A program made the position numbers and the translations under genes. Below the pieces are notes generated by a model. That model made no database searches. It had not been told where the DNA came from and saw nothing but the letters and a program-made list of their open reading frames with translations. Below are positions 17 through 23,704 of a stretch of DNA of 64,000 nucleotides, one piece after another (the first letter of the stretch is position 1; each line of letters begins with the position of its first letter). The DNA lies in assembly GCA_018829205.1 (NCBI GenBank), contig JAHJUE010000006.1, positions 186,001 through 250,000 of the forward strand, read 5' to 3'. Origin of the DNA: Bacteroidota bacterium. Its GTDB lineage: Bacteria > Bacteroidota > Ignavibacteria > Ignavibacteriales > Melioribacteraceae.

Positions 17-3000
17 ATGAAGAATAAATCTGTTATGAATAATGAGTTGATAGAAGACAATTTATCAATCGAAGAGAAATTAATTCAGAGAGAAGCTGAA
101 CTGGCAATTATAAGCAGTGTTAGTGAAGCAATTTCAAAAAGACTTGATGCAAAAACCATTACCCGCATAATCGGTGACAAAGTAAAAGAAATATTTAATT
201 CAGAAGTGACTGAAATCCTTTTGCTCAATGAAACAACTAATATGATAGATATTCCTTATTCATACTACAGGGGATATCAAACTGCCGATTCTTTTCAGCT
301 CGGAGAAGGTTTGACTTCAAAAGTAATAAAATCCGCTAAGCCTCTTGTAATAGGGACTTTTGAAGAAAGCTTAAAAAATGGGGTGATTGTACAATCCGAC
401 GAAGAAAAAACGGAAACCTATATTGGCGTCCCAATTATTTCACATGAAAAAGTTTTAGGCGTTGTAAGTATTCAAAGCTATAAAAAGAATGACTACAACG
501 ATGAAAAAGTGCGTTTGCTTTCTATACTTTCATCAAACATGGGTGTTGCGCTTGAAAACGCTAGACTATTTGAAGAAACAAATATTTTATTAAATGAAAC
601 AAAACAAAGAAATGCCGAATTGGGAGTTATAAACAGCGTGCAGGAAGGTTTAGCAAAAGAGCTTGATATAAACGGCATTTATGAACTTGTTGGTGAAAAG
701 ATAAGAGAAATTTTTAATGCACAAGTTATAGACATTGTCTCATATGATAAAAATACAAACATGATCCGTGATAGTTATTCTTATGAAAAGGGTGACCGGA
801 CATTAATTGGACCGAGACCGCTTACGGGATTTAGAAAACACATAGTTAAATCATTAAAGCCGTTGGTTATCAATAAAGACAATGAAAAAGAATCAATTAA
901 GTACGGCAACAAGGTAGTATTTGGTGAAATGCCGAAATCATTACTATTTGTTCCTATGATAACCGGCGGAGAAGTTTCATGTATAATCAGTCTGCAGAAT
1001 CTTGATATAGAAAATGCTTTCAGTGAATCTGATGTACGGCTATTAACTACTCTTGCTAACAGTATGAGTGTAGCCCTTGAAAATGCTAGGTTATTTGATG
1101 AAACCAACCGATTATTAAAAGAAACGGAACAGCGTTCGGCTGAACTTACCGTTATTAATAGTGTGCAGGAAGGATTGGTAAAGCAGGTAGAACTTAATGC
1201 TATTTTTGAACTGGTGGGTGAAAAGATAAGGGAAATTTTTGATGCTCAGGTGGTGTCAATAGGAGTCTATGATTATGAGAATGAATTATGCCAGTTTAAA
1301 TACGATATAGAAAAAGGCGAAAGATTTTTTGACGAACCAAGAAAATTCATTTCAATTGATAAACATCTTATAAACTTTAAAAAAATTCTACTGGTAAACA
1401 GTAATATAGTTGATGAGTTAGTGAAAATTGGTGAAAAAAAACCAAAAGCTGCAGAAGGAACAGAAATGCCCAAATCCGCAATTTGGGTACCTATGATTGT
1501 TGATAATAACGTAAAAGGATATGTAAGCTTACAGAATATAGATCGTGAAAATGCATTCAGCGATTCGGATGTTAGACTTTTAACAACGCTTACAAACTCA
1601 ATGAGTGTCGCTCTTGAAAACGCCAGACTCTTTGATGAAACAAACAAATTATTAGAGGAAACCAAACAGCAGGCTATCGAATTAAAAATTATCAACAGTG
1701 TAGGCGAAGGTTTGGCAAAGCAGCTTGACTTTCAATCTATTATAGATTTGGTAGGTGAAAAAATTCGGGAAGTATTCAGCGCACAGGTAGTAAGTATTTC
1801 AACATATGAAAAAGAAACTGAACAAATACATCATAGGTACGCAGTTGAATTAGACAAACGTTTTTACTTCGATAAACCGCAGGCAATTGACAACGACAGA
1901 AAAGAAATTATTGAATCCAAACAGCCTTTGATTTTCGGAACTGCCAAAGAAGCTATTGAACATAGCGGCGAAGAAGTTGTAGCCGGCGAAATGCCGGAAT
2001 CGTTTATGGGTGTTCCTATAATCAGAAATCAGGAAGTAACAGGCGTAATTACAGTACAAGATATTGATAAAAAATATCTTTATACAAAAAAGGATGTACG
2101 TCTTTTAATGACGTTGGCCTCAAATATGGGTGTCGCCCTTGAAAACGCTAGACTTTTTGAAGAAACTAAACGTTTATTAAATGAAACGCAGCAGCGTAAT
2201 GTTGAGCTTTCTATTTTAAATGCCATCCAGGAAGGTTTGGTAATGGAAATGGATTTTAATTCTATAATTAATCTTGTTGGCGATAAATTTAGAGAAGCTC
2301 TTGGATTTCTTGATTTGGGTATAAGAATTTATGACAAAGAAAAAAATATCCTTCATTACCCGTATGAATATGAACACGGAAAAAGGTTGAATATCGAGTC
2401 AATGGAACCTACACCATTATCAGACTATGTTCTTAAAACCGGCAAAATGCTTTTGCTGAAAAAGGTAACAGATGAAGAAATTGCAAAGCTGGGTATTACC
2501 GGAAAAACAACAATCCCCGGCACAGATGAAAGCAAATCTCTCGTATTTGTCCCAATTATTGTAGGCACTGAGGCTAAAGGATTAATCTTAATAGAAAATT
2601 ATGAAAAAGAAGACGCTTTTAGCGATTCGGATATACGGTTGTTAACCACTGTTGCAAATAGTATGAGTGTCGCTCTTGAAAACGCAAGACTTTTTAACGA
2701 GACACTGCGTTTACTAGACGAAAGTAAAAAAAGGACAGCCGAGCTTAGTACCGTAAACAGTATTAGTCAGGCAATTGTTGGGCATCTCGAAATTAATAAG
2801 CTAATCAATTTGGTCGGAGATAAAGTCCGCGACCTTTTTAATGCAAATGTTGTCTATGTAGCTCTGCTTGATAAAGAAAGAGTAATGATAAACTTTCCAT
2901 ATGGCTACGGCGATGAATATCCTCCTTTAAAATTAGGAAACGGTTTAACTTCGCATATTATTCTTAAAAAGGAACCTCTGCTTATTAATAAAGAAGTAGA

Positions 3001-4039
3001 TGAAATGACACATGAGCTTGGTGTTGCGCGAATAGGCACGCCGTCTGCATCTTACTTGGGAGTGCCGATTCCTGTCGGCAGCGAAATAATCGGAGTTCTA
3101 AGCGTACAAAGTACTGAAAAAGAAAACCTTTTTAATGAAGACGATTTAAGATTGCTGAGTACAATAGCGGCGCATGTTGGAATAGCGATTAATAATGCCA
3201 ATGCATATGAAGAATTAAACATAACATTGGAAAACCTAAAATCGACTCAGGATCAATTAATTGCTCAGGAAAAATTAGCTTCACTCGGACAATTAACAGC
3301 CGGCATTGCCCACGAAATAAAAAATCCTCTGAATTTTGTTAATAATTTTTCTGAATTATCTGTCGGACTTGTTGACGAGCTTAATGAAGAACTCGGTAAG
3401 TTTAAAAATAAAATTAATGAAGAAGAATATAACGAAGTTACCGACTTGCTTGAAATGTTAAAACAGAACTCGGAAAAAATAAAAGAACATGGTAAAAGAG
3501 CCGACAGCATTGTACACAGCATGCTTCAGCATTCAAGAGGCAAATCGGGAGACAAACAGCCGACCGATATTAACTCAATGCTGGATGAAGATCTCAATTT
3601 AGTTTACCATGGACTTAGGGCGCAGGATAATACATTCAACATTAAAATAGAAAGAAATTATAAAAAGGACCTCGTTAAACTTAACGTTGTTCCGCAGGAT
3701 ATAAGCCGTGTATTTCTAAATATTCTTACTAACGGATGTTATGAAGCGCATAGAAGAAAATCTGAAACCAATTCCGAAGAACCGGCTAAAATTATAGTTT
3801 CCACTAATGATCTTGGCAAGTATGTTGAAATAAGAGTTAGAGATAACGGCAGCGGAATACCTAAAAAAATAAGAGATGATTTGTTTACTCCCTTCTTTAC
3901 AACTAAACCTGCCGGCAAAGGTACAGGTCTTGGTTTGTCAATTAGTTACGATATTGTAGTTCAAGAGCATAAGGGTGAATTGTTTTTTGAGACCGAAGAA
4001 GATAAGTATACGGAATTTATAATAAGACTTCCTAAATAA
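17..4039 (+). CDS. Multi-GAF sensor histidine kinase (six GAF domains)
   Basis: This 1340-residue soluble histidine kinase has no signal peptide and no membrane segment. Six GAF modules follow one another, beginning near residues 27, 200, 375, 554, 729 and 908. Each starts with an (E)L..INSVQEGL-type helix and ends with a GVALENARLFEET-type helix. A short coiled coil leads to the HisKA H-box GIAHEIKNPLNF with His1099 as the phosphoacceptor, then the HATPase: N-box near 1236, G1 DNGSGIP near 1276 and G2 GKGTGLGLS near 1300. There is no receiver domain. The response regulator 20 bp downstream is the likely partner. What the GAFs bind (cyclic nucleotide, small ligand or protein) cannot be told from the sequence. 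The ATG at 17 is preceded by a weak GGTGA. Confidence 0.93.
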   Translation: MKNKSVMNNELIEDNLSIEEKLIQREAELAIISSVSEAISKRLDAKTITRIIGDKVKEIFNSEVTEILLLNETTNMIDIPYSYYRGYQTADSFQLGEGLTSKVIKSAKPLVIGTFEESLKNGVIVQSDEEKTETYIGVPIISHEKVLGVVSIQSYKKNDYNDEKVRLLSILSSNMGVALENARLFEETNILLNETKQRNAELGVINSVQEGLAKELDINGIYELVGEKIREIFNAQVIDIVSYDKNTNMIRDSYSYEKGDRTLIGPRPLTGFRKHIVKSLKPLVINKDNEKESIKYGNKVVFGEMPKSLLFVPMITGGEVSCIISLQNLDIENAFSESDVRLLTTLANSMSVALENARLFDETNRLLKETEQRSAELTVINSVQEGLVKQVELNAIFELVGEKIREIFDAQVVSIGVYDYENELCQFKYDIEKGERFFDEPRKFISIDKHLINFKKILLVNSNIVDELVKIGEKKPKAAEGTEMPKSAIWVPMIVDNNVKGYVSLQNIDRENAFSDSDVRLLTTLTNSMSVALENARLFDETNKLLEETKQQAIELKIINSVGEGLAKQLDFQSIIDLVGEKIREVFSAQVVSISTYEKETEQIHHRYAVELDKRFYFDKPQAIDNDRKEIIESKQPLIFGTAKEAIEHSGEEVVAGEMPESFMGVPIIRNQEVTGVITVQDIDKKYLYTKKDVRLLMTLASNMGVALENARLFEETKRLLNETQQRNVELSILNAIQEGLVMEMDFNSIINLVGDKFREALGFLDLGIRIYDKEKNILHYPYEYEHGKRLNIESMEPTPLSDYVLKTGKMLLLKKVTDEEIAKLGITGKTTIPGTDESKSLVFVPIIVGTEAKGLILIENYEKEDAFSDSDIRLLTTVANSMSVALENARLFNETLRLLDESKKRTAELSTVNSISQAIVGHLEINKLINLVGDKVRDLFNANVVYVALLDKERVMINFPYGYGDEYPPLKLGNGLTSHIILKKEPLLINKEVDEMTHELGVARIGTPSASYLGVPIPVGSEIIGVLSVQSTEKENLFNEDDLRLLSTIAAHVGIAINNANAYEELNITLENLKSTQDQLIAQEKLASLGQLTAGIAHEIKNPLNFVNNFSELSVGLVDELNEELGKFKNKINEEEYNEVTDLLEMLKQNSEKIKEHGKRADSIVHSMLQHSRGKSGDKQPTDINSMLDEDLNLVYHGLRAQDNTFNIKIERNYKKDLVKLNVVPQDISRVFLNILTNGCYEAHRRKSETNSEEPAKIIVSTNDLGKYVEIRVRDNGSGIPKKIRDDLFTPFFTTKPAGKGTGLGLSISYDIVVQEHKGELFFETEEDKYTEFIIRLPK
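94..3230 (+). repeat. Six in-frame GAF repeats, period about 525 bp
   Basis: Repeat units start near 94, 613, 1139, 1677, 2201 and 2738, a spacing of 519-538 bp. Similarity is visible in the DNA as well as the protein, for example in the GTGAAAAGATAAG and CTTGAAAACGC words that recur in several units. The pattern fits growth of the sensor array by in-frame tandem duplication. Units 2 to 4 look most alike and the first and last most diverged. Confidence 0.8.
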
Positions 4040-4059: not shown

Positions 4060-5202
4060 ATGGTACCAAAAATTCTTGTAGTAGATGATGAACCGGATCT
4101 TGAACATCTTATAAAACAAAAATTTAGAAAAGAAATAAGAGACAACAAATATAATTTCTTTTTCGCGGGCAACGGTGTTAAAGCCCTTGAAAAATTAAAT
4201 GAAGACAATAACATAGAGCTTGTACTTACAGATATTAATATGCCTGAAATGGACGGCTTAACTCTTCTTAAGAAAATGCAGGAACTGAATAATCCTCTTC
4301 TTCGTTCTGTTTTTATTTCTGCATACGGTGACATTGTAAACATTAGAACAGCTATGAACGGCGGCGCGTTCGATTTTGTTGTTAAACCGATTGATCTTAA
4401 TGATCTTGAAATAACAATTAAAAAAGCTCTCGATAATTTAGAAACTTTAAAGAAAGCTCTGAAATCGCGCGACGAACTTATACTTGTGCAAAAAGAACTT
4501 CAGGATGCCAGAGAACTTCAGCTTTCAATGCTTCCTAAAAATCTACCCGATTATAATAATCTGGATATAGCAGTATATATGCGTACTGCAACTGAAGTCG
4601 GCGGCGACTATTATGATTTTCATGTTAATAAGGATGATGGATTGACTGTTGTTATAGGTGATGCAACCGGACATGGATTAAAAGCGGGTATGATGGTTAC
4701 AACTGCAAAATCATTGTTCAACAGCTATTCTAATAGTGATGATATTATTTATATTTTCAGTGAGATGACAAGATGCATTAAGCAGATGCATTTTAATAAA
4801 CTTTCCATGTGTCTTGCTTTATTAAAATTTAATGAAAGTAAATTAACCATGTCATCTGCCGGAATGCCTTCAATTTATATTTACAGAAAGAAAACGAATA
4901 CAGTAGAAGAATTTGAATTTCAAGGTATGCCCTTGGGCACGATGGAAAACTTTCCCTATAAGACTGAGGTAACTGATTTGAATTCTGGGGATACAATATT
5001 TTTAACTTCCGACGGTTTTCCGGAATTATTGAACGGTAAAAATGAACAGTTCGGTTACGAAAGGATTAAAACAACGTTTTTAGAATGCGCGGATAAAGCC
5101 CCTGAAGAAATAATTGAAAATTTCAAAATCAAGGGATCTAACTGGGCAGGCGATAAAGATCCGGACGATGATGTAACGTTTGTAGTGATAAAAGTAAAAT
5201 AA
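4060..5202 (+). CDS. Response regulator with PP2C (SpoIIE/RsbU-type) phosphatase output
   Basis: The N-terminal receiver domain (residues 1-120) has acidic pocket Asp9/Asp10, phosphoacceptor Asp58 in LVLTDINMPEMDG, Ser87 and Lys109 in VVKPID. A coiled linker (about 120-158) ends in the ELQLSMLPK motif usual before SpoIIE-type PP2C domains. The phosphatase follows, with metal-binding residues in GGDYYDF (Asp183, Asp186), IGDATGHG and the terminal DPDDDVTF. The protein should dephosphorylate an anti-sigma antagonist such as the STAS protein encoded at 9190 when its receiver is phosphorylated. The gene starts 20 bp after the kinase with a GAGAGAG ribosome site, so the two are probably co-transcribed. 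Its PP2C domain is closely related to that of the next gene. Confidence 0.93.
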   Translation: MVPKILVVDDEPDLEHLIKQKFRKEIRDNKYNFFFAGNGVKALEKLNEDNNIELVLTDINMPEMDGLTLLKKMQELNNPLLRSVFISAYGDIVNIRTAMNGGAFDFVVKPIDLNDLEITIKKALDNLETLKKALKSRDELILVQKELQDARELQLSMLPKNLPDYNNLDIAVYMRTATEVGGDYYDFHVNKDDGLTVVIGDATGHGLKAGMMVTTAKSLFNSYSNSDDIIYIFSEMTRCIKQMHFNKLSMCLALLKFNESKLTMSSAGMPSIYIYRKKTNTVEEFEFQGMPLGTMENFPYKTEVTDLNSGDTIFLTSDGFPELLNGKNEQFGYERIKTTFLECADKAPEEIIENFKIKGSNWAGDKDPDDDVTFVVIKVK

Positions 5203-5223: not shown

Positions 5224-5376
5224 ATGAGATATATTCCCCTCTCCCACTATATTCAATTATTTATAGCTGTGTTAATGCCAATTTCAGTATTCTCTAAATC
5301 ATTTTCTAAATATGAAAGAAACGCATATTTGGTTGAGTATGGTATTAAAGACGGACTCCCAATAACAAACAGTTGA
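5224..5376 (+). pseudogene. 5' remnant of a propeller-PP2C receptor paralogue
   Basis: A 50-codon ORF encodes a signal-peptide-like N-terminus (MRYIPLSHYIQLFIAVLMP...) followed by YLVEYGIKDGLPITN. It stops exactly where the first regulator-propeller repeat would continue. The motif matches IIEYRSKDGLPSNN at the same place in the full-length neighbour that begins 4 bp later. I read it as the truncated front end of a second copy of that gene family. An expressed small secreted peptide is possible but less likely. Confidence 0.65.
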
Positions 5377-5380
5377 GAAT

Positions 5381-8300
5381 ATGAAATCGAATTATATTAA
5401 AAATATTGTGCTGATCTCTGCACTTTTGTTCGTAAATGTTAATGCACAAAATAAAATAAAGACTTCACAAAACTCTGATATTATTGAGTACCGAAGCAAG
5501 GATGGTCTTCCATCCAATAATTTTACTTCAGCCGCCCAAACCAAAGATGGTTACATTTGGCTTTCCGGCCCCGAGGGAACATTCAGATTTGATGGATATG
5601 AATTTGCTTATATAGGCAAGGAATTGGGTATTCCGGAAATGCAGGCTGTTTTTTACGATTCGTCCAAAGATATGCTGTATTTTGCTTCACCGGAAAAATT
5701 TGCGAGCTTCGACGGGAGTAAATTTATAACGTATGACCATTCTTCGGGCTATGCATTAAACGATAATCCCGGACAGGTAATTAGTTTCGTAAAAAAAGAT
5801 AGTAAAGGAACTATTTGGATTGGTTCTTATACTCCGTTTGTTGATAAGTCTTTTAACGGGAGCCTGTTAAATTTCAAGAATAATAAATTTACGATTTTTG
5901 ATTCTTTATCCTTTCCTCTGCACAACGCATCTAATTTTTTGGAAACACCATTTGGCGATTTAATATTTACTTCATTTGGCAGAAATACTCAAAACGGCGA
6001 TGGAGCCTATATTGCTCTATACAAAAATGATAGATTTACAAAAATAGATAGCACCTATGGTTTCAATTATTATAATGCAATAATTGAGGATGAGTATTCA
6101 TCATATATTGATTTAAATGGGAATACATATATTCCTTTTTCCGGGAACTTAGATCTTGAAAGTGAAAATACTAATAAAGGCAGCGGAGTTTTAATTTATG
6201 ATGGTGAAAATTTTAAGAGCCTGCCCGGACTAGAAAATAATTTAGCTAAAGGTAATTATGTCGGCTCTGTTTTTTGTGATAATGAGAATAAAAAAGTATA
6301 TGCTAATATTTATAGGTTTGCTGCAGAAAAAATATCCAAATCAGATAATACAATTTTTGAAATAGATAATAATAAATGGGAACCAAGCGAGATACTAAAA
6401 GAGATATATTTTAATGCAGGTAATGATGCTTCAAAGTTATTGAACTTTTCATATAATTTCTCACGTTTTCAAAAATCAAGTAACCAATTTCCTTTTTCTC
6501 TTATTTTTGGATCAGTAGGAATTTCTCAAAGCTCATCTGATGTAACACAGTTTTTTACAGTTAAGAATAACAAATGGGATAAATATGAAGCATTTATAGG
6601 AAACACAATTCTTAATTTGAATAACGGCGTAATGCTTGCCACAGCCAAAGGCATCGGATTTTTCTCAAAAAACAATTCCATTTTATTAACTAAGAAGGAC
6701 GGATTATTATATCCTGAAACAACAATTCCGCAATTGTACACTGATAAAAACGGTTTAGTTTGGATTATAAATTCGTATTCGGATATCCCCAGTTATATAA
6801 GTCTTAGCAGTGTTGGAATAAATGTTTGGGATGGGAATAAACTAAGAACAATTAATATTAATGATGGACTTAAAAGCAATATTACATTTGAACCTTTGCA
6901 GGACAGCAACATGCGTACTTGGATTCCAACCGATAAAGGAATTACTCAAATCCGTGAAATTAGAAATAGTGACGGCGAATGGATATTCAAATTGAAAAAC
7001 TATAATTTAAAAAATGGTGAAGACTATAACGTATCAACTGTTCTGGAAACTGAAAAAAAAGAATTATATGTTTATCAAAACTACGTTAGGCCTCAATATT
7101 CTTCAGTACCAAAAGCTGATTTTTTCCTCGGCAAAATAGTTGACAATAATATAGAAGAAATTAAATCGCCTTTTAGTAAAGAACTTCAGTCTCTTCCATA
7201 TCAATTATTTTCCTTTAGAGCAGCAAAAAACGGGCATTTATGGCTTGCAGGACATTTCGCTAATAATATTGAAAAATTATCTTCAGTAAAAACTGAATTG
7301 AAAATATTTGACGGTACTAATTGGATAGATCCTCCTAAAGATTGGAATGTTCCTAATCAGAAGCTGCATTTTGTAGGAGAGCTTGATAATGGTGCTTTTT
7401 ATTTAACTGCCGGACATTTTTATAATTTTAACGGCAGAGAGTTTATTGAACTTTCTGACAGCATCGATCAGTTTGCCAATTATAGCATTCTTAAAGGCGC
7501 TAGTGTTTCAGGTACTCAAACTAACATTCAAGTTGGGAATTATTTGTACATAAGACTTAGAAACAGAGGACTAGCTATTTTTGACGGGAAAAATCTAAAT
7601 TACTATACACCGCGCAACAGTATAATTCCAACAGATATTCATAACCCAGAAATAAATTTTAATGGTGATGTTTTCTTCGGCAGCCATTCAGGGGCAGTTA
7701 AAATAAGAGGTGAAAAAGTTGAACTTTATTATGATGACGAAACGATTACTGTAGGAGGTCCCGCTTCAGCTGCAGTTGATATGTATGGCAATATAGTTAA
7801 ATTTTTTACAGGCATTGGATTATCTATTGAAAAATACAAAAAGGAATCAGCGGTGTTAAAAATTTCAAGCGTATCTATTAATGATAAATCATATTATTAT
7901 CAATATCCAAATACTCTGTCTTATTCAGATAATTCTCTTTTATTTAATTACGCGGTTTTAAATTTCAGCCATCCTGATCAAACAATGTATGAGCATATAC
8001 TTGAAGGCTATGACAAAGAATGGTCAAGACAATCGAATTTATCATTCTCAGAATATCAAAATCTACCTCCTGGTAATTATGTATTCAAAGTTAGAGCTAC
8101 TGTTGCAAATGGTGAAAAAATTAATGAATCCACTTATGCTTTTGTAATACATCCACCTTACTGGAAAACATGGTGGGCCTATTCAACATACTTGTTAATA
8201 TTAGGCGGATTTCTTTACACGGTTAGAAAAATTGAACTAAAGAGGCAGGAAAAAAACGCTGCCATTCAGGAAAGTAAATTGCGCGCTGAAGCAGCTGAAC

Positions 8301-9073
8301 TTCAGGCAAAAGCAGCGGAGGCTCAGTCAAGAGTAGTTCAAGCTGAGAATGAACGTAAATCAAACGAACTTGAAGAGGCAAGGCAGCTGCAGTTGTCAAT
8401 GCTGCCGAAAGAATTACCCTTTGTTAAGGATTTGGATATCGCTGTTTATATGAAAACCGCGACAGAAGTAGGCGGAGATTATTATGATTTTGCATTATCT
8501 GCTGACGGAACATTAAACGTTGCCGTAGGCGATGGTACCGGACACGGGATGCAGGCTGGAACTCTTGTTACATTAATTAAAGGTTTGTTTACATCCGAAG
8601 TTTGTTCAAAGCAAATATTGAACTTTTTTAATGATGCCAGCAGAACAATTAAAGAAATAAATCTAGGCCGACTAATGATGGCATTTTCACTTCTGAAAAT
8701 AAAAGAAGGTCATGTTCAATTTTCCAGCGCAGGTATGCCGCCATTGTATATTTATAGAAGTTCATCAAAAATGGTTGAAGAAATTAATCTTGAAGGAATG
8801 CCTTTGGGTGCAATGAAAAAATTCAACTATAAACTTTATGAAACTCAAATTGAATCGGGAGATATCCTTTTGTTGATGAGCGACGGGTATCCTGAATTGT
8901 CGAACGATAATAAAGAGCAAATAGGCTATGAAAGAGTTAAAATTCAAATTGCTGAAACGGCTGAAAGATCATCATCTGAAATAATTGAATATTTTAAGAA
9001 ATCCGGTTCAGATTGGGTCAACGATAAAAATCCCGATGATGATGTTACTTTTGTTGTTCTAAAAGTTAAGTAG
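5381..9073 (+). CDS. Periplasmic two-component-type propeller receptor with cytoplasmic PP2C phosphatase
   Basis: This 1230-residue inner-membrane receptor has an N-terminal signal peptide ending near NVNAQ. A long beta-propeller region follows with repeated regulator-propeller motifs (KDGLPSNN, DGYIWL, GLVWI, GHLWLAG). A Y_Y_Y-like domain (about 850-923) contains EGYDKEWS and LPPGNYVFKVRA. One membrane helix lies near 929-948 and a charged Ala/Glu-rich coiled coil covers about 955-1010. The SpoIIE-type PP2C domain has ELQLSMLPK, GGDYYDF near 1033, GDGTGHG and NPDDDVTF at the C-terminus. The architecture couples an extracytoplasmic signal, often a polysaccharide in related propeller sensors, to dephosphorylation of a partner-switching antagonist. 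Paralogue fragments sit on both sides. Confidence 0.92.
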   Translation: MKSNYIKNIVLISALLFVNVNAQNKIKTSQNSDIIEYRSKDGLPSNNFTSAAQTKDGYIWLSGPEGTFRFDGYEFAYIGKELGIPEMQAVFYDSSKDMLYFASPEKFASFDGSKFITYDHSSGYALNDNPGQVISFVKKDSKGTIWIGSYTPFVDKSFNGSLLNFKNNKFTIFDSLSFPLHNASNFLETPFGDLIFTSFGRNTQNGDGAYIALYKNDRFTKIDSTYGFNYYNAIIEDEYSSYIDLNGNTYIPFSGNLDLESENTNKGSGVLIYDGENFKSLPGLENNLAKGNYVGSVFCDNENKKVYANIYRFAAEKISKSDNTIFEIDNNKWEPSEILKEIYFNAGNDASKLLNFSYNFSRFQKSSNQFPFSLIFGSVGISQSSSDVTQFFTVKNNKWDKYEAFIGNTILNLNNGVMLATAKGIGFFSKNNSILLTKKDGLLYPETTIPQLYTDKNGLVWIINSYSDIPSYISLSSVGINVWDGNKLRTININDGLKSNITFEPLQDSNMRTWIPTDKGITQIREIRNSDGEWIFKLKNYNLKNGEDYNVSTVLETEKKELYVYQNYVRPQYSSVPKADFFLGKIVDNNIEEIKSPFSKELQSLPYQLFSFRAAKNGHLWLAGHFANNIEKLSSVKTELKIFDGTNWIDPPKDWNVPNQKLHFVGELDNGAFYLTAGHFYNFNGREFIELSDSIDQFANYSILKGASVSGTQTNIQVGNYLYIRLRNRGLAIFDGKNLNYYTPRNSIIPTDIHNPEINFNGDVFFGSHSGAVKIRGEKVELYYDDETITVGGPASAAVDMYGNIVKFFTGIGLSIEKYKKESAVLKISSVSINDKSYYYQYPNTLSYSDNSLLFNYAVLNFSHPDQTMYEHILEGYDKEWSRQSNLSFSEYQNLPPGNYVFKVRATVANGEKINESTYAFVIHPPYWKTWWAYSTYLLILGGFLYTVRKIELKRQEKNAAIQESKLRAEAAELQAKAAEAQSRVVQAENERKSNELEEARQLQLSMLPKELPFVKDLDIAVYMKTATEVGGDYYDFALSADGTLNVAVGDGTGHGMQAGTLVTLIKGLFTSEVCSKQILNFFNDASRTIKEINLGRLMMAFSLLKIKEGHVQFSSAGMPPLYIYRSSSKMVEEINLEGMPLGAMKKFNYKLYETQIESGDILLLMSDGYPELSNDNKEQIGYERVKIQIAETAERSSSEIIEYFKKSGSDWVNDKNPDDDVTFVVLKVK

Positions 9074-9154
9074 TCTGTTATTGATGCAGCAAATCAGGAT
9101 AATAATTATAATCCGGGTGACGATATTACTTTTGTAATAATTAAAATAAAATAA
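9074..9154 (+). pseudogene. 3' remnant of a PP2C phosphatase gene
   Basis: Directly after the TAG stop of the receptor gene, the same reading frame continues for 26 codons to a TAA. It encodes SVIDAANQDNNYNPGDDITF followed by VIIKIK. This is a second copy of the PP2C C-terminal strand (compare NPDDDVTFVVLKVK just before the stop). It cannot be an independent gene because it has no start codon. It is best read as the tail of a lost paralogue. Confidence 0.7.
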
Positions 9155-9189
9155 TAAATTGTTTTACAAAACTAACCAAAGGAGATTCC

Positions 9190-9522
9190 ATGAAATTCAA
9201 CACCAAAGAAATATACAATGCCGTTGTTATTGAAGTTATCGGTAAATTAATGGGCGGTCCTGAAGCAGAAGATTTTCACAATGTTCTAGCAAAATCAATA
9301 AGCGAAGATAAAAAAATGGTGCTCGTAGATTTAAGCGATGTAAAATTTGTTAACAGTTCAGGTTTGGGAATATTAGTAAGGGGTTTAACAACAATGAAAA
9401 CAGCGGGCGGCGATTTAAGAATAGCCGGAATATCCGATAAAGTGAAAGGTGTACTTTCTATTACAAAATTAACCAGTGTTTTTAAACTATACGACTCTGT
9501 TGAAGAGGCAGCAAAACCTTAA
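9190..9522 (+). CDS. STAS-domain anti-sigma factor antagonist (SpoIIAA/RsbV type)
   Basis: This 110-residue single STAS domain has the VKFVNSSGLG motif carrying Ser56/Ser57, the phosphorylatable serine site of the SpoIIAA/RsbV family. In partner switching an anti-sigma kinase phosphorylates the serine and a PP2C phosphatase such as the two encoded upstream removes the phosphate, freeing the antagonist to bind the anti-sigma factor. No anti-sigma kinase of the RsbW type is seen in the window, so that partner must lie elsewhere. AAAGGAGA about 5 bp before the ATG is a strong ribosome site, and a terminator follows. Confidence 0.93.
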   Translation: MKFNTKEIYNAVVIEVIGKLMGGPEAEDFHNVLAKSISEDKKMVLVDLSDVKFVNSSGLGILVRGLTTMKTAGGDLRIAGISDKVKGVLSITKLTSVFKLYDSVEEAAKP

Positions 9523-9548
9523 AAATAAAGGCTGTTAAAACTATTATA

Positions 9549-9582
9549 AGCTCTTCTTAATTTTATGAGAAGAGCTTTTTTT
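9549..9582 (+). terminator. Rho-independent terminator after the STAS gene
   Basis: AGCTCTTCT and AGAAGAGCT form a 9-bp stem around a 10-nt loop, followed by a run of seven T residues. It closes the + strand signalling block and overlaps the stop codon of the convergent permease gene. Confidence 0.85.
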
Positions 9583-17901: not shown

Positions 17902-18774
17902 TCATTTTATCTGATTATTGTTGATTTTTCTTCTTGAATACTCTGTTGGGTTAACTCCCATTTGGGATTTAAATATTCTGTTAAAATTGGAAATATTATT
18001 AAATCCAACCTCAAAAGCAGCTTCCGAAATACTTATATCCTTATTAAGCAATAATTTGCATGCTTCACTGATTCTTAGCTCATTTAAAAAATTAAAAAAT
18101 GTTTTCCGGGTCCTTTTCTTAAAATACCTGCAGAACGCAGGTTCACTTAAATTCGCAATCGCAGAAATTGTTTTTAACCGTATTTCATTTTTATAATTAT
18201 TAAGGACATAATTAAAAACCTGGTTTAATCTTCTGTCGCTTTGTTCGCTTGATTTTATTATTCCTTTTTCAGCGCTTAAATACTGTAACTCCGGACAAGC
18301 ACATATCTCATTAAGTAAATTTAGAAATCTAATTAATTTTTCAATACCCTCAGAGTTAAACACTGCATTAAAATATTTAGTGAATTTGTAATCACTTTTA
18401 ATTTTAACTCCTCTTGGAAACTCAGAAAACATTTTCCCGATATGTTTTGTTTCAGGCAGATTAAAAAAATCAGGTCCAAAGGATTCTTCTTTAAAAAAAA
18501 TAGATCTTGAGTGACTAATCAATTTATTGTTTTCGTAATATTCACGCCCCGATCTAAAAACGTGCGGAACATTTGATCCGATGATAAACATGTCTCCCTG
18601 TACAAAACTGCCGGAACTTTCTCCGATGGTATAGCTTCCTGTGCCTTTAATTATAAGTGTAATTTGAAACTCATGATGAAAATGAAATAAATCATAAAAA
18701 TAATTTAGTTTATCTTCCTGTAATTTTATCGACTCTTCTTCCAATTTTGGAATTCTAAATGAAAAAGCCTTCAT
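17902..18774 (-). CDS. AraC-family transcriptional regulator with cupin sensor domain
   Basis: The 290 residues comprise an N-terminal cupin (HFHHEFQITLIIKGTGSYTIGE, GDMFIIGSNVPHVF) and a C-terminal double helix-turn-helix (LKTISAIANLSEPAFCRYFKKRTRKTF and ISISEAAFEVGFNNISNFNRIFKSQMGVNPTEYSRR). The gene is divergent from the hydroxyproline operon with only 149 bp between them, so it is the most likely activator of that operon and may sense hydroxyproline or an intermediate. That role is inferred from position. Confidence 0.9.
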   Translation of the reverse strand: MKAFSFRIPKLEEESIKLQEDKLNYFYDLFHFHHEFQITLIIKGTGSYTIGESSGSFVQGDMFIIGSNVPHVFRSGREYYENNKLISHSRSIFFKEESFGPDFFNLPETKHIGKMFSEFPRGVKIKSDYKFTKYFNAVFNSEGIEKLIRFLNLLNEICACPELQYLSAEKGIIKSSEQSDRRLNQVFNYVLNNYKNEIRLKTISAIANLSEPAFCRYFKKRTRKTFFNFLNELRISEACKLLLNKDISISEAAFEVGFNNISNFNRIFKSQMGVNPTEYSRRKINNNQIK

Positions 18775-18923
18775 AATGAAAATTTCCCTTATTTGCAGTT
18801 ATTAGCAAAATAAGTTATAAAACAGGTCAATATTCTACAAGTAATTGTTAATGTCGACAAAGCGTCTTTTAATACGTTTATGCACATTTCATTAAATAAT
18901 TTAAAATATTTTTTGAGGTCAAT

Positions 18924-19844
18924 GTGAAAGTAGAATGGAAAGGAATTTTCCCCGCAGTTACAACAAAGTTTGCGGATGATGATAATCTGGATCTTATAAT
19001 GTTTTCTAAAAACATAAAAGCTCAGATTGATGCAGGGGTTAACGGAATTGTGCTTGGAGGAACTTTAGGTGAAGCAAGCACTTTAACAGCTGAAGAAAAA
19101 TCAATTCTCGTTAAAGAAACAATATTAATTTCTAAAGGCAGGATTCCTGTAATTATTAATATAGCAGAACAGTCAACTAAAAATGCAATTCTTGCTGCTG
19201 CAAAGGCAGAAGAGGACGGAGCCGACGGACTTATGCTCCTTCCTCCGATGAGATACAAAGCAAATGATTATGAAACAGTTGTTTATTTTAAAGCAATCGC
19301 AAAATCAACAAATCTTCCAATTATGATTTATAACAATCCAATTGATTATAAAATTGAAGTTACACTGGATATGTTCGAACAACTTACGGAATGCAAAAAT
19401 ATTAACGCTGTTAAAGAATCAACTAGAGATATCAGCAACGTAACAAAAATGATCAACAGATTCGGAGATAGATATAAAGTATTAACAGGTGTAGATACCT
19501 TGGGTTTGGAAAGTTTATTAATGGGAGCCGACGGATGGGTGGCCGGATTAGTATGCGCATTTCCGAAAGAAACTGTGGCAATATATAAATTAGCTAAAGC
19601 AGGAAGAATCAACGAGGCTTTAAAAATATACAGATGGTTCTTACCTTTACTGGAACTTGATATTAGTCCGCAGCTGGTGCAGAATATTAAAATGGCTGAG
19701 ACTGCGGCAGGAATAGGCACCGAGAATGTTCGCGCACCGCGACTTCCATTAATTGGAAAAGAGAGAGAACGCGTTCAAAATATAATTATTACTGCAATAA
19801 ATACAAGACCGGAACTGCCGGATTATTTAAGCATCAATGTTTAG
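18924..19844 (+). CDS. DapA-family lyase; probable pyrroline-4-hydroxy-2-carboxylate deaminase
   Basis: This 306-residue TIM barrel of the dihydrodipicolinate synthase/N-acetylneuraminate lyase family has Schiff-base Lys164 in NAVKEST, Tyr136 in MIYNNP and the substrate-carboxylate loop GGTLGEAS. In the hydroxyproline pathway a member of this family deaminates and dehydrates 1-pyrroline-4-hydroxy-2-carboxylate to alpha-ketoglutarate semialdehyde (LhpC/HypD role). The three following genes supply the rest of that pathway, which makes the assignment strong. Translation starts at GTG, with GAGG placed 5 bp upstream; the overlapping ATG two bases earlier runs straight into a stop. Confidence 0.88.
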   Translation: MKVEWKGIFPAVTTKFADDDNLDLIMFSKNIKAQIDAGVNGIVLGGTLGEASTLTAEEKSILVKETILISKGRIPVIINIAEQSTKNAILAAAKAEEDGADGLMLLPPMRYKANDYETVVYFKAIAKSTNLPIMIYNNPIDYKIEVTLDMFEQLTECKNINAVKESTRDISNVTKMINRFGDRYKVLTGVDTLGLESLLMGADGWVAGLVCAFPKETVAIYKLAKAGRINEALKIYRWFLPLLELDISPQLVQNIKMAETAAGIGTENVRAPRLPLIGKERERVQNIIITAINTRPELPDYLSINV

Positions 19845-21451: not shown

Positions 21452-22453
21452 ATGGGAGTTAAAACTTTCTTCTGTATTGACGCTCACACTTGCGGCAACC
21501 CGGTGCGTTTAGTCGCGGGCGGCGGACCGATTTTAGAAGGCGCAAACATGAACGAAAAAAGATTGGATTTTTTAAAAAGATTTGATTGGATTCGCAAAGG
21601 ATTAATGTTTGAACCGCGCGGCTCGGATATTATGTCCGGGAGTATTTTATATCCGCCACACGACAAACAAAACGACATCGGAATTTTATTTATTGAAACA
21701 AGCGGCTGCCTGCCGATGTGCGGCCACGGAACAATCGGCACTGTAACAATCGGAATCGAACAGGGTTTAATAACTCCGAAAGTCCCTGGCAAACTTAGAT
21801 TAGAAACTCCCGCCGGATTAGTAACTGTTGATTACAAACAGGAGGGTAATAGAGTAACGTCGGTTAGGTTTACAAATGTGCCGGCTTATTTAGCTGCTGC
21901 GGATATTGAAGTTGAATGTCCCGATCTCGGTATGTTAAAAGTTGATGTCGCGTACGGCGGAAACTTTTACGCGATTGTCGACGTTCAGGAAAACTTTCCG
22001 GGGTTGGAAAACTTTGAAACTGCGCAATTGATTAATTGGGGGCGCGCTATAAGAAAATCAATTCGTCAAAAACATGATTTTGTACATCCCGAAAATCCGA
22101 ACATCAACGGATTGAGTCACGTTGAATGGACCGGTAAAACAATTGATCCGAAAGCAACGGCACGTAACGCGGTTCTTTACGGCGAAAAAGCAATCGACCG
22201 TTCCCCTTGCGGAACAGGCACATCTGCGCGTATGGCGCAGTGGTTTGCGAAAGGTAAATTAACAATAGGTGAACCGTTTATTCATGAAAGTATAATCGGG
22301 ACAAAGTTTATTGGAAGAGTTGAAGAAACTGTAAAGATTGGCGAATACGACGGTATAATTCCGAGTATTGAAGGCTGGGCAAGAGTTATCGGTTACAACA
22401 ATATTATAATTGACGACGATGATCAATTCCCTGAAGGATTTCAATTAATATAA
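21452..22453 (+). CDS. Proline racemase family; 4-hydroxyproline 2-epimerase
   Basis: The 333 residues carry the two catalytic cysteines of the proline racemase fold: Cys90 in MCGHGTIG and Cys253 in SPCGTGTSA. Both being Cys argues for an epimerase rather than a trans-3-hydroxyproline dehydratase, where the first is replaced. It should convert trans-4-hydroxy-L-proline to cis-4-hydroxy-D-proline, the substrate of the flavin enzyme encoded next. It starts 11 bp after the dehydrogenase gene. Its codons use more G and C than the neighbours (CGCG words), but family and operon fit are clear. Confidence 0.92.
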   Translation: MGVKTFFCIDAHTCGNPVRLVAGGGPILEGANMNEKRLDFLKRFDWIRKGLMFEPRGSDIMSGSILYPPHDKQNDIGILFIETSGCLPMCGHGTIGTVTIGIEQGLITPKVPGKLRLETPAGLVTVDYKQEGNRVTSVRFTNVPAYLAAADIEVECPDLGMLKVDVAYGGNFYAIVDVQENFPGLENFETAQLINWGRAIRKSIRQKHDFVHPENPNINGLSHVEWTGKTIDPKATARNAVLYGEKAIDRSPCGTGTSARMAQWFAKGKLTIGEPFIHESIIGTKFIGRVEETVKIGEYDGIIPSIEGWARVIGYNNIIIDDDDQFPEGFQLI

Positions 22454-22465
22454 TTCGAGATAAGC

Positions 22466-23704
22466 ATGAGTAAGGTAGTTGTTATCGGCGGCGGAATTGT
22501 CGGATTAATGAGCGCTTATTATCTAAACCAATCCGGGCACCAAGTTACGGTAATTGAAAAATCCGATTTTACAAAAACATGCTCATACGGCAATGCAGGT
22601 TTAATTGTGCCTAGCCACATAATTCCGCTTGCCGCGCCGGGTATGATTTCCATGGGATTAAAATGGATGTTTAATCCCGGCAGCCCTTTTGGTTTTAAAC
22701 CTTCACTCAGTAAGGATTTAATTTCATGGATATGGAAATTTTATAAATCATCAAACAAAACGCATGTTGATAAATCTAAAATTCCACTGCGTGATTTTAA
22801 TCTATTGAGTAAAGAATTATACCAAGAACTTTCTAAAAGTTTTGATTTTCATTTAAAGAACACTGGTATACTTTTGATGTTTAAAACTGAAGAAGCAGGC
22901 AGACATGAAATTGAGACAGGTATTGAAGCGCGGCATTTAGGTCTTGATATAGAAATTCTAAACGGTAAAGAAGTTCAGGAAATTGAACAGATTGAAACTA
23001 ATGTCGCCGGAGCTGTTTACTTTAAATGCGATTCGCATATTTATCCCGGTAAACTTTTAACCGCGATTATTGACCATCTTAAAGATAATAACACCGTAAT
23101 TTTAGACAACACAGAAATATTAAATTTTGAGTTAAAGAACGGGAAAATAACAACGGTTATTACAAAGGATAAAATAATTGAAGCCGATTATTTTGTTCTT
23201 TCCGGCGGAATGTGGTCGAATAAGTTGAGCAGAAAATTAAATATCAATATCCCGCTGCAGTCCGGTAAAGGCTACAGTATAACTTTGCAGAATTTCAAAA
23301 ACCCTCCAAAATATCCGTCGCTGCTGCTTGAAACGCGTGCCGCCGTTACGCCGATGGGAAATGATCTGCGTCTGGCAGGAACAATGGAACTCGGTTCAAA
23401 TAATGATAAGATTAATTTCAAACGTGTGAAAGGTTACTTAAGTAGAATGAAAGATTATTATCCCGGCATTGACCCGATCATTCCAAACGCAAAAGAAATA
23501 TGGTTCGGGCACCGCCCCTGCTCGCCGGACGGACTGCCGTATATCGGAAAGTCTGATAAATTCGATAATCTTGTTTACGCAACAGGTCACGCGATGATGG
23601 GTTTAAGTCTCGGTCCCGCAACAGGCAAACTTGTTCAGGAAATTATTGATGATAAGAAAACTTCCGTAGATTTAACACCTTTTAATCCGGAGAGATATAA
23701 TTGA
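22466..23704 (+). CDS. FAD-dependent D-amino acid oxidoreductase; probable cis-4-hydroxy-D-proline dehydrogenase
   Basis: This 412-residue DAO-family flavoprotein has the N-terminal dinucleotide motif VVIGGGIVGLMSAYYL, the GNAGLIVPSH segment typical of DadA/HypO-like enzymes, and the C-terminal FAD-binding GHRPCSPDGLPYIG...ATGHAMMGLSLGPATGKLV. It should oxidise cis-4-hydroxy-D-proline to 1-pyrroline-4-hydroxy-2-carboxylate and pass electrons to the respiratory chain. It is the last gene of the operon, and its stop directly abuts the stop of the convergent aminotransferase gene. Confidence 0.9.
   Translation: MSKVVVIGGGIVGLMSAYYLNQSGHQVTVIEKSDFTKTCSYGNAGLIVPSHIIPLAAPGMISMGLKWMFNPGSPFGFKPSLSKDLISWIWKFYKSSNKTHVDKSKIPLRDFNLLSKELYQELSKSFDFHLKNTGILLMFKTEEAGRHEIETGIEARHLGLDIEILNGKEVQEIEQIETNVAGAVYFKCDSHIYPGKLLTAIIDHLKDNNTVILDNTEILNFELKNGKITTVITKDKIIEADYFVLSGGMWSNKLSRKLNINIPLQSGKGYSITLQNFKNPPKYPSLLLETRAAVTPMGNDLRLAGTMELGSNNDKINFKRVKGYLSRMKDYYPGIDPIIPNAKEIWFGHRPCSPDGLPYIGKSDKFDNLVYATGHAMMGLSLGPATGKLVQEIIDDKKTSVDLTPFNPERYN

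Follow-up and report, generated by a model that had tools for sequence, protein, structure and literature searches.

Gene fragments on both sides of an intact receptor phosphatase: probable scars of turnover in a tandem array of Melioribacteraceae

What could leave an intact receptor gene enclosed between the beginning and the end of other members of its own family? The question is raised by a 64,000-nucleotide (nt) stretch from a Bacteroidota bacterium of the family Melioribacteraceae, referred to here as the window (assembly GCA_018829205.1, contig JAHJUE010000006.1, positions 186,001 to 250,000; G000:C38:186001-250000 in our numbering, G000 being the window's own genome). In this window a gene for a propeller receptor with a PP2C phosphatase output is preceded by a short open reading frame (ORF), called here the head stub, and followed by a short PP2C-like piece, the tail stub. 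A preliminary description, made from the letters alone, had taken the two stubs for the ends of a lost paralogue, left behind by recombination in an array of tandem genes or by replacement of the middle of an older copy. A lost paralogue and a recombining array are both supported by what we find, including four further receptors upstream; that the stubs are two ends of one and the same gene is a narrower claim that we regard as doubtful. Our preferred answer, to which we give a probability of about 0.74, is that both stubs are debris without function, left behind as receptor phosphatase genes turned over in a tandem array that recombines, with loss at two slots. The argument refers to the following features, in positions of the window.

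17 to 4039, forward strand: six-GAF histidine kinase (Pfam GAF_2 in six stretches, HisKA, HATPase_c)
4060 to 5202, forward strand: response regulator-PP2C gene, next to the head stub on its left side (Pfam Response_reg, SpoIIE)
5224 to 5376, forward strand: head stub, a signal-peptide-like start and the first 49 codons of a class III receptor, then a TGA that probably lies in the next gene's leader
5371 to 5380, forward strand: junction on the left and the intact gene's short leader (class III homology ends at 5370; class I leaders were compared side by side)
5381 to 9073, forward strand: intact class I propeller-Y_Y_Y-SpoIIE receptor phosphatase of 1230 amino acids (Pfam Reg_prop, Y_Y_Y, SpoIIE)
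9074 to 9096, forward strand: stretch after the stop with no recognisable homology, probably 3' intergenic sequence that belongs to the intact gene (in the best blastn alignments the tail starts at 9097)
9097 to 9154, forward strand: tail stub, the last ~19 codons of a putative lost PP2C gene (79% over 62 nt against array gene 2)
9190 to 9522, forward strand: STAS (RsbV-like) protein at the end of the locus (Pfam STAS; NSSGLG motif by eye)
9548 to 9577, forward strand: terminator-like hairpin closing the locus (12-pair stem with a T run)

The intact receptor and its two stubs

The intact gene runs from an ATG at 5381 to a TAG at 9071-9073, and the STAS gene with its NSSGLG motif starts 116 nt past this stop. 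Its SpoIIE domain scores 102.5 bits against a Pfam cut-off of 25, which places it among the SpoIIE/RsbU-type PP2C phosphatases, and its set of PP2C motifs is complete (GGDYYD, GDGTGHG, SDGYPE and DDDVT, presumably catalytic). Across 164 genomes of the order, matches at E<=1e-150 place the receptor subfamily in 16 genomes, the window's own included, with 18 matches in all, three of which belong to genome G105. Orthologues 60-61% identical to the intact gene occur in G002, G023, G150 and G105, and a tree of 15 full-length members of the subfamily resolves three classes, I, II and III, class I comprising the genes of G000, G002, G023 and G150 together with the first copy of G105, and class III consisting of the third copy of G105 only. 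Tandem full-length copies in relatives, proposed beforehand as a check on an array origin, do occur in G105, where classes I, II and III stand in tandem on one contig; this genome is listed with 8% contamination, which leaves the gene order within one contig unaffected. A class-wide search with the class III gene of G105 matched 10 of 391 genomes at E<=1e-150 (own genome included, G105 not being part of the sample), all of them known class I or II members, and a broader search of contigs with the intact gene returned, among the matches listed, only nine distant relatives, from Bacteroidota and gammaproteobacterial records.

The ORF at 5224-5376 had been described with exact coordinates and frame. 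It reads MRYIPLSHYIQLFIAVLMPISVFSKSFSKYERNAYLVEYGIKDGLPITNS over 50 codons, joins a signal-peptide-like beginning to the start of a first propeller repeat, and ends with a TGA at 5374-5376, with 4 nt between it and the intact gene's start codon; the signal peptide was judged by eye and by alignment to relatives' starts, without a predictor. Neither the head piece nor the tail piece reached any family when searched alone against Pfam. The core of the head (5302-5370) is best matched by the class III gene of G105, with 16 of 23 residues identical and a BLOSUM62 score of 70, against 11-13 of 23 for class II (scores 41-59) and 10-11 of 23 for class I (38-48); the best score among 34 other PP2C heads of the arrays is 35, and 100,000 shuffles of the core compared with the subfamily cores reach 42 at most. 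At the DNA level 46 of 69 nt are identical to the class III gene up to codon 49 and 9 of 33 thereafter, so that the joint would lie at about 5370 and the stop codon of the ORF would probably belong to the short leader of the intact gene. The homology thus breaks off abruptly within a domain, at the start of the propeller. On these alignments the ORF is a truncated paralogue, a pseudogene fragment, of the propeller-PP2C receptor subfamily, from its class III branch.

At the other side, 9074-9154 reads SVIDAANQDNNYNPGDDITFVIIKIK followed by a stop codon, in frame with the stop of the intact gene. Scored with a matrix built from PP2C tails, the piece reaches 37.6, compared with 5.4 at most in 840 shuffled gaps, and it is a real PP2C tail; together with the match of the head to subfamily N-termini, this bears out the view that full gene and fragments belong to one family. 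The second PP2C tail in frame with the stop had been correctly noticed, although its homology begins only near 9097: blastn of the tail finds nothing recognisable in 9074-9096, and for this reason the agreement in frame is probably a one-in-three chance and means little. Ungapped DNA homology extends from ~9097 to 9158, with 79% identity over 62 nt to array gene 2 and 80% over 64 nt to a receptor of G150. Among 66 tails, the end of the adjacent gene itself ranks only 51st (71% identity over 45 nt) or 64th (69% over 36 nt); by this comparison the tail is closer to other receptors and is not a recent copy of its neighbour's end. Its best DNA matches are spread across many PP2C genes, and at ~19 codons it is too short and too conserved for assignment to a class.

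The array and the same slots in relatives

The window cuts through a tandem receptor array, most of which lies outside it. Just upstream of the window stand four further full-length propeller-PP2C receptors with the same architecture by Pfam (C38:169977-173735, 173772-177557, 177882-181634 and 181803-185576). On their upstream side lie genes for a HATPase_c_2 kinase, a STAS protein and a PP2C phosphatase, and on their downstream side those for a response regulator and the six-GAF kinase, then the response regulator-PP2C gene. As a side observation, the PP2C gene close to where the locus begins (G000:C38:168272-168671; L026:4272-4671) has a frame that is open upstream of its first ATG, GTG or TTG and homologous there to relatives' starts, which suggests that its true start is another codon. 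Terminator-like sites numbered three in the scanned stretch, with 2.6 expected by chance.

Relatives carry whole genes at both slots occupied by the stubs, or lack them. In G150 the response regulator-PP2C gene, the class I receptor and the STAS gene follow one another with gaps of 24 and 111 nt, and both slots are empty. In its congener G023 the first slot holds ~13.1 kb, with three propeller receptors, one other PP2C gene and one stub, and the second ~5.9 kb, with two receptors, all of which are absent in G150; in turn, G150 has one receptor upstream of the kinase that is missing from the stretch of G023 examined. The first and second of these slots are those of the head and tail stubs in the window. 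The loci of relatives were examined in part, and receptor counts per genome are lower bounds.

Further fragments occur in these arrays. An ORF of 131 codons in G023 consists of a receptor head and a PP2C tail and lies partly on one copy of a 1041-nt direct repeat, 95% identical (oriented locus 18218-19258 and 22368-23408; L067, L068), which covers the PP2C end of one receptor and the head of the next; its first copy carries most of the stub. A blastx search of 89 inter-gene gaps in the arrays recovered, besides the two pieces of the window, orphan tails of 66 amino acids (G047), 93 amino acids (G063) and ~33 amino acids with an internal stop (G037). The remaining matches in the gaps were two STAS genes shorter than the length threshold (G002, G026), a PP2C start clipped by ORF calling (G000), parts of two receptors that are interrupted (G026, G063), and a marginal case in each of G150 and G138.

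Comparison of sensor and PP2C parts, by a fixed split of each of 47 receptors, suggests that PP2C ends can recombine apart from sensors. In the window's own array, genes 2-4 have PP2C ends 87-91% identical in protein and sensor parts 31-36% identical, which suggests that the output end has been exchanged or homogenised. Fifteen pairs among the 47 receptors, five of them within a genome, combine a sensor identity below 35% with a PP2C identity of at least 80%, and within class I, sensors that share 61-62% of their residues are joined to PP2C domains sharing 48-58%; the class I genes of the congeners G023 and G150 stand at 91% and 94%. A derivation of the class I PP2C of G150 from the last gene of G023 was considered and rejected, the domain being 91% identical to class I of G023 and 74% to that last gene. 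In the class I copy of G105 (G105:C50) the PP2C end is 87% identical to that of a G085 receptor with an unrelated sensor (sensor parts 19%). The PP2C end of the G105 class I gene is likely to be a case of output exchange between genes.

How the stubs may have arisen

The favoured account would run as follows. At the first slot, after the response regulator-PP2C gene and before the class I receptor, all but the first 49 codons of a class III receptor would have disappeared; at the second, after the class I receptor and before the STAS gene, nothing but the last ~19 codons of another receptor would have remained; and gain and loss alike would have proceeded by recombination between conserved PP2C ends, together with illegitimate joints. 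The sequences themselves show the identity of the stubs, the array, and which relatives have or miss whole genes at these two slots, whereas the order of events, the joints and the number of lost genes, one or two, are what we infer; since the slot of either stub is one that holds entire genes in some relatives and none in others, two separate losses seem at least as likely as one.

Several observations weigh against this account. More than one full copy of the subfamily occurs in only one of the 16 genomes, G105, the other 15 having one match each, and neither the survey of the order nor the class-wide search revealed an intact class III gene outside G105. In that genome, moreover, class III lies downstream of class I, whereas in the window its head lies upstream of class I. 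No same-genus genome is among the matches listed, so that the state before the losses is not seen. Among close sensors, exchange of the output is the exception: where sensor identity is at least 55%, only nine of 54 pairs have a PP2C identity more than 5 points lower, eight of the nine being within class I. Finally, the tail of the window is short, and in this clade hairpins or tandem repeats can likewise be accompanied by short copies of PP2C tails.

The alternative that survives best is the single paralogue of the preliminary description. On this view one class III gene supplied both stubs, and the present class I gene either took the place of its middle or split it. We think this possible and yet rather unlikely. 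The stubs belong to one family and both joints are near the intact gene, the 131-codon stub of G023 holds a receptor head and a PP2C tail in a single ORF, and the class II members of G050 and G138 are among the best DNA matches of the tail. The tail itself, however, has no class III assignment, the class III end of G105 matching it at 81% over 42 nt and many other ends as well or better; homologous replacement would be expected to yield a fused gene, where the window has one that is intact from its own start codon to its own stop codon; and at each slot relatives differ by entire genes.

For the 3' piece the main alternative, in our view improbable, is that it is not the end of a lost gene but a short tail copy of the type associated with hairpin or tandem-repeat elements at PP2C gene ends. 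A second tail was found in four of 42 gaps of at least 30 nt after PP2C genes, namely in the window, in G154, in G023 and upstream in G000. In 9074-9096, beside the tail of the window, no hairpin is evident by eye, and whereas the copies of G154 and G023 rank 1 and 3 in likeness to the end of the adjacent gene, the window's tail falls at the low ranks given above; the hairpin-associated copy upstream in G000 is also unlike its neighbour (62 of 66), so that rank alone is not decisive.

The elements themselves take several forms. In G154 (L107:9519-9941) the end of a PP2C receptor gene carries 7.6 copies of a 56-nt unit, which joins the last 35 nt of the gene to the hairpin GCCTGTCCGCCATAGGCGGA. 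At G000:C38:181635-181802, and in the gap before the class I gene of G023, a short duplicate of a PP2C gene end lies behind a hairpin (CCTCCG..CGAAGGAGG). Similar hairpins are present elsewhere, some seemingly between short direct repeats, with flanks viewed at 17 of 27 hairpin places, and those of this pattern are few in the window's own genome, at six places.

That the ORF at 5224-5376 is a working small gene, coding for a secreted peptide of 50 amino acids or serving as a leader that couples translation of the receptor, is in our view very unlikely. The frame is open and signal-peptide-like, and the 4-nt spacing from TGA to ATG would suit coupling. Nevertheless, a receptor head that stops abruptly where homology ends explains the ORF best, and the 50 residues searched in the 164 genomes at E<=0.05 gave 18 places, made up of the ORF itself, 13 N-termini of the subfamily and four other matches, with no second ORF of this kind standing alone among them. 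The preliminary description had named relatives that keep the short ORF under purifying selection, as a real peptide gene and without any second copy, as the finding that would refute its reading, and no such case is among these places. The four weak matches outside the subfamily were considered as decayed heads and discarded, on inspection proving to be frames with stops or a different protein. Translational coupling could still occur as a by-product of the scar.

An assembly error that joined pieces of the array, to which arrays of similar genes are prone, is scarcely credible, since no repeat longer than 700 nt within the receptor array of G000 exceeds 85% identity and the PP2C domain of the intact gene is 65-74% identical to the others, save for 41 nt at 93% with gene 1, repeats too different or too short for collapse to be likely, and since the assembly holds no second copy of the head.

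Different sensors on a possibly shared output

The locus resembles known systems in part. RsbU/RsbV/RsbW systems, such as the sigma-B pathway of Bacillus subtilis, use SpoIIE-type PP2C phosphatases in partner switching, and the window's locus likewise unites SpoIIE-type PP2C, HATPase_c_2 kinase and STAS genes; it differs from them in that several propeller receptors and a response regulator-PP2C gene share one locus. The hybrid two-component systems of Bacteroidota carry Reg_prop/Y_Y_Y sensors, which the receptors described here match in having propeller repeats, then Y_Y_Y and a membrane helix (the helix judged by eye), but there the output is a histidine kinase with an AraC-type regulator and here it is a PP2C phosphatase. 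Judging from the domains, the propeller most likely senses outside the membrane, the PP2C domain most likely strips phosphate from the STAS protein, and the RsbW-like HATPase_c_2 kinase encoded where the locus starts would restore it; several receptors would then feed one STAS switch.

Unequal or illegitimate recombination in tandem gene clusters leaves gene fragments, and the head and tail stubs among paralogues, with whole-gene insertions and deletions between relatives, agree with this pattern. Examples treated in the literature are banana resistance genes and poxviruses; the present case differs in being a bacterial receptor-phosphatase array in which some output ends are nearly alike and the sensors differ. 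Open-licence PMC text held no paper matching all the terms sought. The scar is ordinary in mechanism, and the array is more interesting than the scar. For annotation it carries a warning, in that the ORF at 5224-5376 is probably no peptide gene and the tail past the stop codon is not read-through coding sequence.

The scar also marks positions of breakpoints in an array that has differing sensors and several near-identical output ends, and it is therefore a place to test the swapping of sensors on a common switch. It is tempting to go one step further and to suppose, tentatively and against the odds as we see them, that the locus is a sensor-exchange array, in which recombination at PP2C ends would set different propeller sensors on a shared output to one STAS switch, the stubs being breakpoints and the head stub maybe kept for translational coupling. 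If this were true, strains would be able to re-tool their sensing without rewiring the output.

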